A DNA stretch of 9,835 nt from Candidatus Desantisbacteria bacterium CG1_02_49_89 (GTDB taxonomy: Bacteria; Desantisbacteria; UBA1551): positions 1-9,835 of the forward strand of contig MNUP01000126.1 in the NCBI GenBank assembly GCA_001871075.1. Reading direction: 5' to 3'. Shown piece by piece: positions 1,641-9,835 of the stretch (positions are counted from its first letter, which is position 1; every line of letters begins with the position of its first letter). The notes beneath the pieces were generated by a model. It saw only the letters and a list, made by a program, of their open reading frames with translations, searched no databases and had not been told where the DNA came from. The translations under genes and the position numbers were made by a program.

Positions 1641-3155
1641 ATGAAAAAAACTATTATTTTCATAATATTAATACTTTCAGCTTTCAGCTGCTTCGCAGCT
1701 GAGGAGGGTTTAGTGGCGCACTGGCGTTTTGACAAAGAAGGGGACATAGAGGACCTGTCCGGTAACGGCTATACTGCCGCTGTGTCCGGAGGAAGGGTCG
1801 TGACAGACTCCGGGAAGAAAGTGCTTGAGTGCGACGGCGCGCAGTCCATACAGATCGCATCCGCAAAAGACCTGTGCGTCCGAAAAAAATTCGCAATAGA
1901 GCTTTCCGTGAAATTCCCGGAAGCCACTGAAGGGATGAACCTTATCTCCAAGGAGAACGAATTCCTCCTGCGAACTGACTGGAACCAGGAAGGCGGGAAG
2001 ATCTCGTTCTTCGTGTTCGGTAACGGCGGGTGGGAGCCAAGGGTCAGCGCTTTCAACCCGCAGGCGAATACCTGGTACCACATGATCATAATGTGGGACG
2101 GCACGCAGTCATACCTTTGGGTTAACGGCGAGGTGTTCACTACCGCGCGCAGCGGTGCGGTAAAACCAACAGATGACCCGTTAGTTATCTGCTCGCGCTC
2201 AAATTTTGGCGGCCCGTTCGCGGGTTGCGTTGAATATGTCAAGGTATATAAAAGGATGCTGACCGCTGGCGAGATCGTCAGGAAGCAATACGGCATTGAT
2301 GAAAAAACAGGCGGAGGCACTGAAAATACTGTTTTTGATTTTAGCAAAGGCCTGCAAGGGTGGGTTGGACGCGAGGGCGCTGAGCTCAAAGCTGAAAGCT
2401 CAAAGCTCAAAGTAAATACAAAACAAGAGCAATCGTTCATAATAAATAAGGACCTGAACGCGAATATTGACAGGAGGGACTACCTTGCCGTGAGGATGGC
2501 CGTAGATAAAGGCTCAAGGGGAGACATAATCTTCGCGACCACGAAAGGCGCCTCCCGCGTTTCCTTCCAGACATACGCTGATAACAAGATGCACGCTTAC
2601 GTTTTCGAACCCTGGGCGTGGAACGGCTGGGGCGGGAACCTTATAGCCCTGGGCATCGGCCCGTCTGAGGTCGGAGGGACTGCGGCGCAGATCGAATACG
2701 TGAAAGTTATGGAAAGCCCTGATGCTGACCCGGAAATACAGATCACGGGATTGTTCATAGAATCAGTGCTTCCGCGGGCTGAAAAAACCGAGACTTTGAT
2801 CGTAAGGGTGAAGAACGCGGGCGGTCCTGTTTCAGGCCTGCAGGCAGTTTTGAAAACCCCGGAAGGTGTTACTGTTAAAGGCAGCGCTGTCGCGCAGATC
2901 CCCGCCCTGAAATACCTTGAAGAAAAGGAAATTTCCTGGCAGGTTGAAAGCCTTCGACCGGTGAGCGGGGATTTCGTTGTTGAGGTGACGGGAAAAGGCG
3001 TAAGCGCGTCTAAGGCGCAGAAAATAAGCTTTCTTCCAAATCCGAAGCTTCCGAAAGCTTCCTATGTTCCTGAGCCCAAGCCGGTGAAGCCGGGAAAATA
3101 CCAACTGTGGACACACTACTGCCCGCTGTGGAAGCACGGCACGCATATGGGATAG
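1641..3155 (+). CDS. secreted LamG-domain protein, N-terminal part of an interrupted GH99/WbsX-like hydrolase
   Basis: GGAGG at 1632-1636 supports the ATG at 1641. Residues 1-20 form a signal peptide (basic MKK, a run of Ile/Leu/Phe, cleavage near CFA-AEE), so the product is exported; the upstream of C17 is a poor lipobox. Residues about 23-212 are a LamG/concanavalin-type domain, opening with GLVAHWRFD and including WYHMIIMWDG and LWVNGEVF, typical of glycan-binding modules. Residues about 230-355 form a beta-rich domain that resembles the extreme C-terminus of the downstream frame (both have a WGG motif and end in an IEYVKV or IRSIRL strand). Residues about 366-465 look like a CARDB/Ig-like spacer. 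The frame then enters the catalytic domain (HYCPLWKHGTHMG) and stops at TAG 3153-3155. If translated alone it would be a binding protein without a catalytic site. Confidence 0.85.
   Translation: MKKTIIFIILILSAFSCFAAEEGLVAHWRFDKEGDIEDLSGNGYTAAVSGGRVVTDSGKKVLECDGAQSIQIASAKDLCVRKKFAIELSVKFPEATEGMNLISKENEFLLRTDWNQEGGKISFFVFGNGGWEPRVSAFNPQANTWYHMIIMWDGTQSYLWVNGEVFTTARSGAVKPTDDPLVICSRSNFGGPFAGCVEYVKVYKRMLTAGEIVRKQYGIDEKTGGGTENTVFDFSKGLQGWVGREGAELKAESSKLKVNTKQEQSFIINKDLNANIDRRDYLAVRMAVDKGSRGDIIFATTKGASRVSFQTYADNKMHAYVFEPWAWNGWGGNLIALGIGPSEVGGTAAQIEYVKVMESPDADPEIQITGLFIESVLPRAEKTETLIVRVKNAGGPVSGLQAVLKTPEGVTVKGSAVAQIPALKYLEEKEISWQVESLRPVSGDFVVEVTGKGVSASKAQKISFLPNPKLPKASYVPEPKPVKPGKYQLWTHYCPLWKHGTHMG
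2383..2410 (+). repeat. heptanucleotide tandem repeat inside coding sequence
   Basis: Four 7-nt units run head to tail: AGCTCAA, AGCTGAA, AGCTCAA, AGCTCAA. They encode part of the segment AELKAESSKLKV at the start of the second beta domain of the LamG/GH99 protein. Other 7-nt repeat runs lie at 4623-4650 and 5103-5134. Slippage by one unit would shift the frame, so the run is a plausible mutation hot spot. Confidence 0.85.
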
Positions 3156-3308: not shown

Positions 3309-4610
3309 GTGCAGCAGCAGCTGGGCCACGCGATCCACGACGGGCTTCTGAAGGCAAGATACCTGAACATGATAAAATTCAGCATTATGTGGGAGAACGG
3401 GTGCGGGGCCGGGGCAGGCTCTTCAAAAGACGTAATGGATAACCTTATGCCTTTCTGGATAGACAACTATTTTTCGAACCCGTCGTACCTGCGGGTTGAC
3501 AACAAGCCGATACTTTACATCTGGGTCCCGCAGAACGTTACCAGGGACGCGGGCGGCAGCCCGAATGTCCGCACGCTTTTGAATGATATGCGCGAGGCGT
3601 GCAAAGCCAGAGGCCTTAACGGGCTTTACATAGTCGGCTGCGTGAGCGGCAAGGACGCGGCAGAGCTTAAGAAGATGGCTGATGAGGGATGGGACGCGAG
3701 TTCTTCTTACGGGAGTTCCTGGTGGTATCCGAAAGAGATAAAGAAAAGCGGGGATTTTATCTGCGCGCCTTACGAAGGTTTCGTGGACCAGCAGGAAGAG
3801 ATACTGAAGTTCAAGAACGAGGTTAACGCCCAGCCGGATATTACGTCGATAATGATGGGATGGGATTCCCGTCCCTGGAAGGAAACCCCGTTCTTCTGGT
3901 GTGAGAACACGGCTGAGAAGTTCAGGGACCTGTGCGTCCGAGCCAAGAAGATAACGGATTCGAAGACGACTTCCGGCCCGGAAAAGAACACGATGATCTT
4001 TTGCTGCTGGAACGAGTTCGGGGAAGGGCATTACATAGAACCGACGCGCGGCTACGGATTTTCCTACCTTGACGTGATCAGGGACGTTTTCACGGAAGCG
4101 CCCAAAGAACATATGGACATATCGCCCGAGGATGTTGGCTTGGGGCCCTACGATTCCTGGTACCAGGACGCCAAGAAACTTGCACCGATCACAAGCATTT
4201 CAGAGGACACAGAGTGGTCAGGCGCGAGGATGGGGGTCTGGACAGGCATGATGGGTTTAAAGGATGTTGAGGTGAAGGACGGGATACTTACCGCAATGAC
4301 TTCCAGCACCGATCCTGCATTCAGTTCCCCGGCTTTGAAGATACGCGCCAACAGGTACACAAGGGTTGTAATGGACATGAGGGTGAGCAAGGGCAGTTCC
4401 ATGCAGCTTTTCTTCATGACGTCCGGGGCGACGAATTACACGGAGCCTGCAAGTTCGGTTGCCCAGACAAAGGCGGATGGGGAATTCCACGAGTATTCGT
4501 TCAATGTGGGCAGGAACGAGAACTGGGGAGGGTGCCTTACCGGCATGCGCTTCGACCCGTCATCTGCCGAGGGAGCGCTGCTTGAGATAAGGTCAATAAG
4601 GCTTGAATAG
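3309..4610 (+). CDS. GH99/WbsX-like glycoside hydrolase catalytic part, downstream of the in-frame TAG
   Basis: This is the same frame as 1641-3155. The open frame really resumes at 3156; 3309 is only the first GTG and has no ribosome binding site, so separate translation is doubtful. Homology to the family starts before 3309 (GYYNEGTPEVADWHIKYWLEHGI at about 3195-3263, then YCWYR), showing that the true protein begins upstream. Family features are IKFSIMWENG, the YIWVPQ strand, and near the end CCWNEFGEGHYIEPTRGYG. The last contains a NExxE pair (E792 and E795 in the whole frame), matching the spacing of the two catalytic glutamates of GH99 endo-alpha-mannosidases. The final ~120 residues form a second copy of the WGG beta domain seen in the upstream part. 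Expected substrate: alpha-mannosides, inferred from family and from the GH38 neighbour. Confidence 0.8.
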   Translation: MQQQLGHAIHDGLLKARYLNMIKFSIMWENGCGAGAGSSKDVMDNLMPFWIDNYFSNPSYLRVDNKPILYIWVPQNVTRDAGGSPNVRTLLNDMREACKARGLNGLYIVGCVSGKDAAELKKMADEGWDASSSYGSSWWYPKEIKKSGDFICAPYEGFVDQQEEILKFKNEVNAQPDITSIMMGWDSRPWKETPFFWCENTAEKFRDLCVRAKKITDSKTTSGPEKNTMIFCCWNEFGEGHYIEPTRGYGFSYLDVIRDVFTEAPKEHMDISPEDVGLGPYDSWYQDAKKLAPITSISEDTEWSGARMGVWTGMMGLKDVEVKDGILTAMTSSTDPAFSSPALKIRANRYTRVVMDMRVSKGSSMQLFFMTSGATNYTEPASSVAQTKADGEFHEYSFNVGRNENWGGCLTGMRFDPSSAEGALLEIRSIRLE

Positions 4611-4650: not shown

Positions 4651-5107
4651 TACGAGGTTTATCGCTGATTCCATGCTGGGCAGGCTTGCCAAATGGCTGC
4701 GCGTGCTGGGGTTCGACACCCTTTACAAACCTGACTGTAAAAAAGAGGATATGATCCTGCGCAGCCTGCGGGAAAAGAGGGTGATCCTGACGAGGAATAC
4801 AAGGCTGTCAAAAAGCGTGGGGCTGCAGGTTGTTTTCCTGGCTGACACAGAGGTAAAAAATCAGATAAACCAGATAATTAATGAACTAAATTTAAAGATT
4901 GATAAGTCAAGTATTTTTATACGTTGCACAATTTGTAACGAAATAGCATTGACTGTGCCAAAAGAACAGGTGAAAGATAAGGTTCCGGAATACGTTTATA
5001 ATACCCAGAAAGAGTTCAGGATATGCCCTGCCTGCAAGCGGATATACTGGGCAGGGACTCATAGCGAGAGTGTGGCAAGAATGCTTGCGGAAATAAATAT
5101 ATGTTAA
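4634..5107 (+). CDS. Mut7-C (DUF82) PIN-like RNase-domain protein with zinc ribbon
   Basis: A 157-residue protein matching the Mut7-C family: an N-terminal PIN-like nuclease fold followed by a zinc ribbon. Visible marks are FIADSMLGRLAKWLRVLGFD (residues 9-28, with D12 as a predicted metal-binding acid), RVILTRNTRL (49-58), C98-x2-C101 in RCTICN, and C131-x2-C134 in CPACKRIYW, then GTH. The family usually has Asp in the LTRD motif; here residue 55 is Asn, so nuclease activity may be weakened. The ATG at 4634 has AGGA at 4620-4623 ten bases upstream. The gene follows the hydrolase by 23 bp, suggesting co-transcription, although its likely role (RNA turnover, cytoplasm) is unrelated to sugars. 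Codons for residues 74-97 are clearly more AT-rich than the surroundings. Confidence 0.88.
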   Translation: MNDARCTRFIADSMLGRLAKWLRVLGFDTLYKPDCKKEDMILRSLREKRVILTRNTRLSKSVGLQVVFLADTEVKNQINQIINELNLKIDKSSIFIRCTICNEIALTVPKEQVKDKVPEYVYNTQKEFRICPACKRIYWAGTHSESVARMLAEINIC

Positions 5108-5134
5108 AGGTTAAAAAGGTTAAAGATGTTAAAA
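5103..5134 (+). repeat. GTTAAA short tandem repeat in the Mut7-C/GH38 gap
   Basis: GTTAAA begins at 5103, 5110, 5119 and 5128, that is 7-nt units with two extra bases in the last two intervals. The first copy overlaps the stop codon of the Mut7-C gene. A similar GTTAAAGGTT occurs at 8108-8117. No terminator or promoter is evident in this gap. Confidence 0.75.
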
Positions 5135-5178
5135 AGGATTAATATAAAAATAATGAGGTAAAGGAAAGGAGAAATAGT

Positions 5179-8013
5179 ATGATGAAAAAGAGCTTGCGTG
5201 CGCATTTTATCCCAAACAACCACCTGGACAGGGAATGGACCCTGGATTTCCAGTGGACAAGGGCTTTAACAGTGGATTTCTTTGACGCCCTCATAGATAT
5301 TTTGAAGAAGATACCGGGTTACATATTCCTTCTAGACTCGCAGACAGTGCCTCTGGAGGACTATTTTGAGATAAGGCCGGAAAAAGAGCCCATTATAAAG
5401 AAGTATATAAAGGAAGGCAGGATCGAGATAGGACCCTGGTACACAGCGCTTGACTCGAATACGGTCCAGGGCGAGTCCATCACCAGGAACCTTCTTGTCG
5501 GGCACAATGTCGCGAGGAAATACGGCCCTGTGATGAAGGTGGGGTACACCCCGTTCGGCTTCGGCCAGGTCGGCCAGCTTCCCCAGATCTACAAGGGGTT
5601 CGGCATCGATTCCTGTTTTTTCTACCGGGGCATAAGCGACGCGGACGCGCCTGACCCCGAGTTCTACTGGGTGTCTCCTGACGGCACTGAGATCTTTTCC
5701 TCGCGTTTCGGCACGATGAGGCGGGTGAACTTTTACTTTGAGATCTGGCGGAAATCCTCCTTCACCGAAAACGGAAACGTGAAAGACCGAGAGTCCCACT
5801 GGAAGGACGGGCAGATATCGTTCAGGCTGTGCAATGAGGAGAGCCGTTATGACCACGGTTCAGTGCTGCGGCCGCAGCTCAGGCTTGACAAGGAAGCTTT
5901 GAAAAAGTGGTTCAGGACGTTCATGGACCAGGAAAAGAAAATATTCCTTACCCCGGAAATACCTATGATGCACGGAATGGATACCCGGGCTCCTGACATC
6001 CGCGAGAAGCAGGTTGTCGAGGACATACAGAACTACCTGCACAAAGACGAGGAGTTCTTCTACAGCTCAATGTCAAGATACGCGAAAGACCTTTACAGAG
6101 CCGCCAGGGGCATGAAACTGCACAGGGTTTACGGCGAGTGCAGGAGCGGGGATTCGTTCACCAACATAGTTTCCGCGCGCGCAAAGCAGAAACTCGCGGA
6201 ATCAAAAGCTGAGAACATGCTTATCAGGAACGCGGAACCTTTCTCCGCCATCGCTACCGCCGCGTGCGGCAGGGAATGGCCCAGAAAATACCTTGAGCAG
6301 GCCTGGAAGACGCTTCTCATCTGCCACCCGCACGACACAGCCGCGGGATGCGGGATAGACAGGATGGAAGAGGACTTTATGTACCGCGCGAACCAGGTTT
6401 ATTCCATTTCAAGAATGCTGCGCCAGAGAAGCCTTAAGGCGATACAGGAACGCATAGACACAACCGACGTGAAACCGGAAAATATCGTTATCACGGTTTT
6501 CAATCCGTCCCCGTTCGCCAGGACAGAGAATACCACTGCTTTCATCGCGATTCCTAAAGAATTAAACATAAAGGATTTTATTTTAACAGAACCTGTCCCG
6601 CGTAGGGGCGGGCTTGCCCGCCCATCGGTACGTGAAAAGCAAGTTTCTTATGCTATATTAAACAAGCAGTTCGCTTCCCGCGTTTACAGGGATGACGAGC
6701 AGATCGCGATGATGTGCCTTTCGGACGAATACAAGATCAGCTTCCTCGCGGAAAACATCCCTGCCCTGGGCTATAAGCGTTATGTATTAAAAAAACCTGA
6801 CTACGCCAAGGCTTCGTCAGGCAGGGGTTTGCCCGCCACTAAAGCTTTGGCGGGCGAGCGTGTGATCGTGTCAGAGAAAGCGAACACGCTCGAGAACGAA
6901 TTTTTAAAGGTTAAGATAAACCCTGACGGAACCATTGATTTAAGGGATAAGAACCGCGGTAAAACTTATAAGGGTCTCCATTATTTCGAGGACGTCGGCG
7001 AGTTCGGCCAGGGATGGGAACACCTGAAAATGTTCAAAGACAGGCTTATCACAAGCAGGGGAGTAAAGGCGGATATTTCGCTTGAGCATAATAAGGGGCT
7101 TTACGCGAGCTTCAGGGTTTCCTGGAAGCTCAGGATCCCGGCGAAGAAGATCTATTTTGACGAAAACTATGATAAGGCAAAGCGCAGCGCGGAGACAAAA
7201 CCCCTCGAGATCGCGTCCACGTACATCCTGCGCTCAGGCGCGAAAAGCCTGGAAGTCGAGACCGAGATAGACAATAAGTCGCAGGATCATAGACTGCGCG
7301 TGATCTTCCCCGCGGGTTTAAATGCGAAGGTTTCATCGGCGGAGAGCGCGTATGACGTGATGGACAGGCCTGTGGGGAACGGGAAGGATTATCCTTTCCT
7401 GAGATTTGTTGATATTTCTGACAGGAAGAACGGGCTTGCGTTCATTTCCGAGGGAATCAGGGAATTCGAGGCGCTCAAAGGCGCGAACGGCGCTGTGCTG
7501 GGGATCACCCTGTTAAGGGCGTTTGAGATCCAGATGTGCACCGTGGGTTTTTACAGGACAGCGGAAAGGTATCCGGAGGAGACGCTGAGCCAGTGCATTG
7601 GAAAGATAAGGCACAGATATTTCATCTGCCCGCACAAAGGGACATGGGCTTCGTCAGGAGTGACGGAGGAATCAGAAAGGTTCAACCTTCCGCTTGTCGT
7701 TGCGATGTGCGGGGCGGGGAACAAGGGAGACCTGCCCAAAGCCTTCAGCTTTTTTGAGATAAAGGGAAAGAACGTGATGCTTTCAGCCCTGAAGATCGCT
7801 GAGCGCAGTAATTCGTCGTTGATCGTGCGCGTTTTCAACCCTGATTCAAAACCGGCGCGCGCGGAGATCAAATTCTTCAAAAAAGTGAGATCCGCCAGGT
7901 TTGTAAACATGAACGAAGATGCCTTAGAGGGCCGTAAACCCGCCGCACGCGGCAATTCAGTTTCTTTTATTATCCCGTATAAGAAAATAGTAACCTTAAG
8001 CGTCAGTTTATAA
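5179..8013 (+). CDS. glycoside hydrolase family 38 alpha-mannosidase-like protein
   Basis: A 944-residue protein of normal length for GH38, the zinc-dependent retaining exo-alpha-mannosidases. No signal peptide, so cytoplasmic. AAGGAG (about 5166-5171) supports ATG 5179; ATG 5182 is an alternative. Domains: catalytic GH38N about 5-300, middle helical domain about 310-400, beta C-terminal GH38C about 570-940. Zinc-site residues by family alignment: H15 and D17 in NNHLDREW, and H385 in HPHDTAAG; D268 in HGMDTRAP matches another active-site Asp. The fourth ligand, which is also the nucleophile (Asp in PDSFGHSxQLPQ), falls on F126 in YTPFGFGQVGQLPQ, so canonical catalysis is doubtful. Two palindromic repeats are inserted in frame at residues about 475-482 and 540-559, both in linkers between domains. 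The GH99-like gene upstream suggests alpha-mannoside processing. Confidence 0.92.
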   Translation: MMKKSLRAHFIPNNHLDREWTLDFQWTRALTVDFFDALIDILKKIPGYIFLLDSQTVPLEDYFEIRPEKEPIIKKYIKEGRIEIGPWYTALDSNTVQGESITRNLLVGHNVARKYGPVMKVGYTPFGFGQVGQLPQIYKGFGIDSCFFYRGISDADAPDPEFYWVSPDGTEIFSSRFGTMRRVNFYFEIWRKSSFTENGNVKDRESHWKDGQISFRLCNEESRYDHGSVLRPQLRLDKEALKKWFRTFMDQEKKIFLTPEIPMMHGMDTRAPDIREKQVVEDIQNYLHKDEEFFYSSMSRYAKDLYRAARGMKLHRVYGECRSGDSFTNIVSARAKQKLAESKAENMLIRNAEPFSAIATAACGREWPRKYLEQAWKTLLICHPHDTAAGCGIDRMEEDFMYRANQVYSISRMLRQRSLKAIQERIDTTDVKPENIVITVFNPSPFARTENTTAFIAIPKELNIKDFILTEPVPRRGGLARPSVREKQVSYAILNKQFASRVYRDDEQIAMMCLSDEYKISFLAENIPALGYKRYVLKKPDYAKASSGRGLPATKALAGERVIVSEKANTLENEFLKVKINPDGTIDLRDKNRGKTYKGLHYFEDVGEFGQGWEHLKMFKDRLITSRGVKADISLEHNKGLYASFRVSWKLRIPAKKIYFDENYDKAKRSAETKPLEIASTYILRSGAKSLEVETEIDNKSQDHRLRVIFPAGLNAKVSSAESAYDVMDRPVGNGKDYPFLRFVDISDRKNGLAFISEGIREFEALKGANGAVLGITLLRAFEIQMCTVGFYRTAERYPEETLSQCIGKIRHRYFICPHKGTWASSGVTEESERFNLPLVVAMCGAGNKGDLPKAFSFFEIKGKNVMLSALKIAERSNSSLIVRVFNPDSKPARAEIKFFKKVRSARFVNMNEDALEGRKPAARGNSVSFIIPYKKIVTLSVSL
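6602..6623 (+). repeat. GTAGGGG-tagged palindrome inside the GH38 gene
   Basis: GTAGGGG (6602-6608) runs into a perfect 8-bp stem, GGGCGGGC (6606-6613) and GCCCGCCC (6616-6623), with a 2-nt loop. It is read in frame as RRGGLARP. The same GTAG tag plus palindrome appears between genes at 8075-8097 and 9272-9292, and partly at 9296, so this is a dispersed element within a coding sequence. Confidence 0.8.
6796..6855 (+). repeat. composite double-palindrome repeat inside the GH38 gene
   Basis: Two stems lie side by side: CCTGAC (6796-6801) with GTCAGG (6816-6821), and GCCCGCCA (6831-6838) with TGGCGGGC (6848-6855), whose loop region includes the palindrome AAAGCTTT. It is translated as about 20 residues (PDYAKASSGRGLPATKALAG) between the YKRYVLKK strand and the start of the C-terminal domain. 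A partial, diverged copy lies in non-coding DNA at 9196-9236 (CAAGGCTTC followed by CCCGCCA/TGGCGGG). Confidence 0.82.
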
Positions 8014-9048: not shown

Positions 9049-9076
9049 TTGACAAATAGCGATTTCGGGTTATAAT
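9049..9076 (+). promoter_or_regulatory. perfect-hexamer sigma70 promoter
   Basis: TTGACA (9049-9054), 16-nt spacer, TATAAT (9071-9076), with an A/T-rich stretch just upstream (9003-9048). Transcription would start near 9083. It is the only promoter in the window with both consensus hexamers, and the next recognisable start codon is about 690 nt downstream, so it seems to serve the non-coding unit that follows. Confidence 0.82.
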
Positions 9077-9146
9077 ACATATATTACTTCTCCTTACTCA
9101 TCTTCCTAACCCATATTCTTCTTCCCATTCTATATCGTATTTCGCC

Positions 9147-9189
9147 CGCCCCTTTGGGGCGAGGTCTCGCCCCGATGTCCATCGGGGCG
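9147..9189. repeat. two adjacent GC-rich palindromes
   Basis: CGCCCC (9147-9152), TTT, GGGGCG (9156-9161) is followed by CGCCCCGAT (9168-9176), GTCC, ATCGGGGCG (9181-9189). Both stems are perfect and share the CGCCCC core, suggesting that related elements were inserted side by side. Confidence 0.8.
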
Positions 9190-9195
9190 GATAGG

Positions 9196-9236
9196 GCAAG
9201 GCTTCTCAAAGACCCCCGCCAAACTAACTGGCGGGC
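9196..9236. repeat. diverged intergenic copy of the GH38 coding repeat
   Basis: CAAGGCTTCTCA (9197-9208) and the stem CCCGCCA (9215-9221) with TGGCGGG (9229-9235) keep the order and sequence of 6806-6855 in the GH38 gene, with a shorter middle part. Confidence 0.65.
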
Positions 9237-9271
9237 AAGCTGCCAATCATTAAGGAGGGAGCCTGCGATTT

Positions 9272-9310
9272 GTAGCGGTGCGATTTATCGCACTTGTAGG
9301 GGTTCAATTC
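9272..9310. repeat. GTAG-tagged palindrome plus a second truncated tag
   Basis: GTAGCGG (9272-9278) leads into TGCGAT (9279-9284), TT, ATCGCA (9287-9292). Immediately after, GTAGGGGTTCAATTC (9296-9310) looks like the 5' part of another member whose return arm is missing. Confidence 0.72.
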
Positions 9311-9380
9311 ACCTGTCCGCCCTTGTCCGCCAATTTTTTAAGGAGGAAATCTTTAAGGTGGGAGGCTTGCGTTTGTTAAT

Positions 9381-9410
9381 TCCCCCTTTGTTAAAGGGGG
9401 ATTGAGGGGG
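9381..9410. repeat. TCCCCCTTT/AAAGGGGGA hairpin element
   Basis: TCCCCCTTT (9381-9389), GTT loop, AAAGGGGGA (9393-9401), then a repeat of the GAGGGGGATT end (9404-9413). This type of repeat is seen in many environmental bacterial genomes, by general knowledge. It ends just before the first stem of the structured RNA domain. Confidence 0.78.
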
Positions 9411-9593
9411 ATTTTGCCTGCTCCGACCGTAGAGTCATTAACTTTGTTCTGACTCGCAGGTCCCTGTGTTAAGTTCCGGTTTTACCGGAACTACAGGGAT
9501 CGGAGCGAGAAGCCAGAAAGGAGCGCTAAACAGGGCTGAAATTGTAAACGCCCGGGGGATTTTTGTTTTTAAGTAAAAGAATAGAAGAATTAG

Positions 9594-9657
9594 GCTATTG
9601 CTGTCCGAAGATCCTGACACATGCCAATCGGGATACTACTTCGGGCAGAGAGATAGC
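9594..9657 (+). other. long RNA hairpin domain
   Basis: GCTAT (9594-9598) pairs with ATAGC (9653-9657); CTGTCCGAAG (9601-9610) with CTTCGGGCAG (9639-9648), one G-T pair; ATCCTGA (9611-9617) with TCGGGAT (9628-9634), one G-T pair. The loop is CACATGCCAA, with an ACTA bulge on the 3' side. The G-T pairs sit where a DNA palindrome would not keep pairing on the opposite strand, which suits selection at the RNA level in the + direction. Confidence 0.72.
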
Positions 9658-9677
9658 GGGATTTACGAAACAAACAC

Positions 9678-9721
9678 AAGGCGCTTGGAGTCTAATAATA
9701 TATAGACTCGGCGCTTTTTTT
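9678..9721 (+). terminator. intrinsic terminator
   Basis: AAG-GCGC (9678-9684) pairs with GCGC-TTT (9711-9717), a small internal loop (TTG opposite G) follows, then GAGTCTA (9688-9694) pairs with TAGACTC (9703-9709) around an 8-nt ATAATATA loop. Seven T residues (9715-9721) follow. The orientation is + only. It ends 45 bp before the next start codon. Confidence 0.88.
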
Positions 9722-9766
9722 ATTTAAATGATTATTATTGAATTAATAAATCGCAAGAGGACTTTG

Positions 9767-9835
9767 ATGTCAGGTCAAAAATATTATAAAATTGGATACA
9801 GGAAACAAATGAAGAATATAAAATCCTTTGGTGCA
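9767..9835 (+). CDS. start of an unidentified gene, cut by the window end
   Basis: ATG 9767 opens a frame of 23 codons that is still open at the last base. The protein begins MSGQKYYKIGYRKQMKNIK, is basic, and has no signal peptide in the part seen. AAGAGGA at about 9755-9761 is a good ribosome binding site at a suitable distance. I cannot assign a family from 23 residues. If transcripts from 9049 read through the terminator they would reach this gene, so it is the natural candidate for control by the upstream RNA. Confidence 0.6.
   Translation, partial: MSGQKYYKIGYRKQMKNIKSFGA

Follow-up and report, generated by a model that had tools for sequence, protein, structure and literature searches.

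The stretch of DNA analysed here (the ‘window’) spans contig MNUP01000126.1, C143 in our numbering, from end to end; a 9,835-nucleotide piece of the 2.48-Mb, 93.5% complete draft genome of Candidatus Desantisbacteria bacterium CG1_02_49_89. Its upstream part encodes, in listed order, a DegT aminotransferase, a laminin-G-like ORF, a WbsX-like ORF, a Mut7-C protein, a GH38 mannosidase and a DUF3108-like protein, the last of which scores slightly under the cut-off for the DUF3108 family. The laminin-G-like (1641–3155) and WbsX-like (3309–4610) ORFs are separate but follow each other on the same strand, and may be a single gene split by a frameshift or stop. A search of the stretch for tRNA and tmRNA genes found none, and a search of phage records with it returned zero matches.

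Reading the remainder of the window from 5′ to 3′ on the + strand, we first meet a sigma-70-type promoter (TTGACA-16-TATAAT, 9049–9076), which the first-pass annotation had rightly called perfect (12 of 12 consensus positions), and whose spacer and flanking sequence are seen again at other leader copies. There follow a mosaic of interspersed repeats (9138–9415), pieces of which match many sites across the genome, and a palindromic repeat with the shape of a three-way junction (9420–9506, core at about 9427–9499), itself sitting in the loop of another palindrome; to neither of these do we assign a strand. Next comes a block that recurs in the genome (9515–9685), containing a possible antiterminator strand (AGCGCT, 9522–9527) predicted to pair with the 5′ arm of the terminator (GGCGCT, 9680–9685), and a small hairpin (GGGC..GCCC, 9533–9553) identified from the consensus fold and pair counts. 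The latter lies just 5′ of a Shine-Dalgarno motif (GGGGG, 9554–9558) and a short ORF with a TTG start (9563–9727), within which is found a long hairpin (9594–9657), and which reads through an intrinsic terminator (9678–9721) recognised by terminator scan and by its covarying upper stem. Beyond the terminator there is a weak promoter-like match (9764–9792) and, finally, the ATG of a further ORF (MKNIKSFGA..., 9809–9835), truncated by the contig end after nine codons (27 nt), its position and AGGA motif being like those at two related loci, C105 and C19. The region had initially been described as being without a credible gene, a reading that missed both the short ORF and the ORF start at 9809.

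Eight copies of the leader are present in the genome, counting that of the window. The 9515–9685 block is 90–92% identical to its counterparts in C63, C105 and C19, with a partial match in C27; the copy in C128 is 77% identical to that of C105, and those in C133 and C101 are diverged copies found with a covariance model. A further covariance-model hit, in C47, was discarded, since on reading it contained a similar terminator only and no leader. The terminator is present in every copy except that in C27, which is interrupted, and the 5′ halves differ strongly in both length and repeat content. The conserved element is the promoter plus 9515–9721.

Outside this genome, a covariance-model search of 191 other genomes (with stricter filters for most) found no leader; among them was one other genome of the same phylum, which also had no match to the RHS protein encoded in C101. 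Scanning GTDB species contigs with a degenerate pattern turned up 10 scattered hits, and a single viral contig also matched the pattern; none was supported by the covariance model. The leader is known from this genome only so far; that said, the collections searched may not include close relatives, and its absence elsewhere is not proven.

The first-pass annotation took the whole of 9049–9721 as one structured non-coding RNA unit, with the three-way junction as part of it. The predicted fold of the junction is real (−42.9 kcal/mol), but its membership of the unit does not hold: its pattern has 41 hits genome-wide (compared with 2 for a reversed control pattern), it occurs in the window copy of the leader alone, and it folds with similar strength on both strands (−42.0 kcal/mol on the other). 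A simple ORF scan places 27 of 30 copies between genes, with both orientations represented; between co-directional neighbours, 12 are antisense and 7 sense. Compensatory changes are seen in one arm (GAGTCA/TGACTC, GAGCCA/TGGCTC, GGGTCA/TGACCC and GCGCCA/TGGCGC), as well as in the other, which takes the form of several different stems; 20 copies together yield 62 double-changed cells versus 27 in shuffles (a count reached by 0 of 500). The inner stems are nearly devoid of G-T pairs (3 G-T and 5 A-C in 400 cells), and just 47% of cells are paired in the outer stem, which was taken from the surrounding sequence. At C63 the same enclosing palindrome carries an ordinary short loop, with no three-way junction inside. 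We read the junction as an interspersed, DNA-level palindrome of REP/MITE type, resembling REP, BIME and MITE repeats in having tens of short, dispersed and mainly intergenic palindromic copies, in both orientations and nested in mosaics, but differing from them in its three-way-junction shape with covarying arms. The repeat (L094–L123) is at times tandem (L102) or nested inside other palindromes. A search of 240 other genomes did not find it, and identity as an integron attC site was rejected, by inspection only, as the ends do not fit. Other short palindromic repeats build intergenic mosaics genome-wide (9138–9415 in the window; also L021 and L022), for example GCCCGCCCCTTTGGGGCGAGG..., and TTCCCCCTTT...AAAGGGGGATTGAGGGGGATTTT. 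Much of 9138–9506, including the junction, is made up of passengers unrelated to the leader; a lesson that a persuasive folded ‘RNA’ in raw sequence may be a composite of a real leader and inserted palindromic repeats.

The segment 9410–9727 as a whole has a predicted folding energy of −112 kcal/mol (z = −6.0), matched by none of 100 shuffles. Both hairpins described in the first-pass annotation fold as stated: the long hairpin at −27.7 kcal/mol on the + strand against −20.2 on the −, and remodelled but kept in C128 and C133; the terminator at −18.5 kcal/mol. In the latter, the upper stem has been swapped between two groups of copies for a different, yet still pairing, sequence, with six of seven pairs changed on both sides. 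An initial six-copy alignment contained no double changes. With eight copies, the terminator and hairpins covary, giving 10 double-changed pairs versus 3.0 in shuffles (0 of 500), a count that leans toward structure in that the alignment was itself adjusted to fit the fold, while a single genome supplied all the copies. A search of Rfam, covering riboswitches, T-boxes, small RNAs and other families, gave no match at or above the gathering threshold; with E-values of up to 10 allowed, three chance-level matches appear.

The arrangement around the short ORF is found in all seven terminator-bearing copies: a Shine-Dalgarno-like motif (GGGGG or GAGG) lies 4–5 nt before a TTG or ATG that opens an ORF of 22–54 codons. 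The stop codon falls inside the terminator stem in C105, C19, C63, C128 and C101 and 7 nt before it in C133, with the ORF of the window running past the stem because of a 1-nt deletion; in both of these last two the frame has been altered by single-base changes. Such an arrangement arises in 2–4% of shuffles per copy, a figure to be read with the copies not being independent and the ORF of C133 falling just outside the cut-off of the test. The amino acids themselves are under no visible selection: among three close copies, substituted sites are distributed 3:6:4 over the codon positions, showing no purifying pattern. A conserved functional peptide was rejected on this ground and for want of a family match, searches of the peptide giving no hit above cut-off in Pfam and none in NCBIfam; so too was an amino-acid (trp-type) attenuator, as none of the seven peptides contains a run of a single amino acid.

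The copies are tied to one gene family. All six of the RHS (DUF6531) domains detectable in the genome lie behind a leader copy, and an RHS-type gene or remnant follows seven of the eight copies; the remaining one is that of the window, where the ORF is truncated by the contig end. As only nine codons of this ORF are available, its identity has to be drawn from the link between leader and RHS genes at the other loci, by which it is probably also an RHS-type gene. In C128 the leader is followed by a HEAT-repeat gene and then by an RHS gene whose N-terminal domains differ; in C27 a transposase gene breaks up the copy, and what remains of an RHS gene lies on its far side. This insertion (L020, about 4824–6390), by eye an IS3-like element, cuts the leader copy as well as the beginning of the RHS gene behind it. 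The RHS loci mostly run into contig ends (C105, C63, C101, C128, C27 and the window), as if a shared RHS core had collapsed in assembly, and there are probably more, or longer, RHS genes than are visible here. At two loci the distance from the T-run of the terminator to the start codon is only 19 nt (C63) and 13 nt (C133), which leaves no room for a separate promoter, so that there the leader must act in cis. That 9049–9721 serves as a leader which attenuates transcription of RHS genes in cis is, on this sequence evidence, quite probable.

For 9049–9721, we favour a reading, at a probability of roughly 0.6, in which it is the leader of an RHS/YD-repeat-type gene beginning at about 9809, with read-through gated by translation of the short ORF in the manner of pyrBI attenuation. 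In E. coli, the ribosome all but silences a terminator that lies a few nucleotides past a stop codon, and the terminator recovers when the distance exceeds about 27–30 nt (PMC4824070), and the attenuation of pyrBI works by coupling across the leader ORF (PMC5021804). It is by analogy with E. coli that the placement of the upstream ORF in or near the terminator stem leads us to propose a ribosome-silenced terminator. RNA polymerase would start just after 9076 and meet the terminator at 9678–9721, the downstream gene being made only upon read-through. A ribosome following close behind the polymerase would cover the 5′ arm of the terminator, so blocking the hairpin and permitting read-through; were translation slow, blocked or uncoupled, the terminator would fold and transcription would stop. 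The hairpins at 9533–9553 and 9594–9657 and, in some copies, an AGCGCC:GGCGCU helix may tune this balance. That read-through is regulated we infer; that translation of the short ORF is itself the switch we hold tentatively, at a little under even odds. Points that weigh against the reading are the missing leader promoter of C63 and C133, the decay of some RHS loci, the lack of visible selection on the short peptide and the weak promoter-like match that follows the terminator in the window. Processive antitermination by a NusG paralogue (RfaH/LoaP/UpxY) was considered and rejected, there being one NusG domain only in the 93.5% complete genome.

An attenuator that senses a ligand or protein—an orphan riboswitch or protein-binding leader—would read the same conserved block differently, with 9515–9553 and the long hairpin sensing and toggling between antiterminator and terminator, and the short ORF incidental. 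Consistent with this, the AGCGCC:GGCGCU pairing appears in the predicted fold of the RNA lacking the 3′ arm in four copies (window, C105, C63 and C128), the segment corresponding to 9515–9553 is near-identical between C105 and C128 even though the middle of the leader has diverged, and the peptide of the short ORF is not conserved. The antiterminator strand is, however, imperfect in C19 and absent from C133 and C101, such that the helix could form in four copies and is no general feature; in C101, where a long open RHS frame follows, most of the leader's middle is gone yet the ORF and terminator are retained, and no riboswitch of Rfam is matched. We consider such a sensor unlikely.

Less probable still is a constitutive terminator or insulator that shields RHS genes from upstream transcription, the rest being leftover duplicated sequence. 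Several copies do stand in decayed RHS loci (C19, C27 and probably C63), and the two that lack a promoter (C63 and C133) sit closely behind another gene. Against this, in six of the eight copies, including the window, a strong promoter is present (the same promoter with a similar spacer in C105, C19, C27 and C128, and a TTGACA..TATAAT promoter in C101), and this, the only strong promoter there, lies upstream of the terminator and points into it; a placement with which a pure insulator makes no sense. Nor would an insulator fit the conservation of the leader, which is far greater than that of the proteins behind it and independent of them: between C105 and C63 the leader is 92% identical over 212 nt, the proteins aligning over a short DUF6531 stretch only. 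A separate small RNA that spans promoter to terminator, acts in trans and lies upstream of RHS genes by chance has its own promoter, terminator and strong folding in its favour but is very improbable given the 13- and 19-nt spacings to the downstream start codon, the strict RHS link and the wide variation of the 5′ half, from copy to copy, in length and in the repeats it holds. Between the two options that the first-pass annotation had left side by side, a new small RNA or a regulatory leader, it is therefore the leader that gains from the RHS link, the covariation and the lack of an Rfam family, and the small RNA that suffers from the spacing.

Returning to translation-gated read-through, the known system most like it is the pyrBI (pyrL) attenuator of E. 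coli, in which translation of a short leader ORF covers an intrinsic terminator and permits read-through (PMC4824070, PMC5021804), as predicted here. The shared elements are a promoter, leader and intrinsic terminator in cis (two of the eight copies being without the promoter) and a translatable ORF that ends in or beyond the terminator stem in six copies and, in C133, shortly before it. Unlike pyrBI, the RHS leader stands before other genes, has no known tract for nucleotide-sensitive pausing immediately ahead of its terminator, and has a long hairpin within the ORF; we claim no sequence relation between the two. It also resembles the uORF-type and attenuator leader candidates of comparative genomics, the uORFC motifs among them, which place a structured leader with a short ORF ahead of one gene family (PMC8632094), and differs from these in having no Rfam motif match and in being confined to one genome and to RHS genes.

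RHS/YD-repeat genes are large and costly, and their products are often antibacterial or surface-exposed. A limited text search, largely without the subscription literature, did not find published leader-level control of such genes. It is conceivable, if doubtful, that the leader represents an undescribed class, exchanged as a module among RHS genes with unrelated N-terminal regions and tying the production of large exported proteins to translation via a short ORF that ends in a terminator. A shared attenuator ahead of every detected RHS gene would give the organism a simple control point, and one that is testable; if the reading is true, the leader class might be a common switch for when, or which, RHS genes get made.
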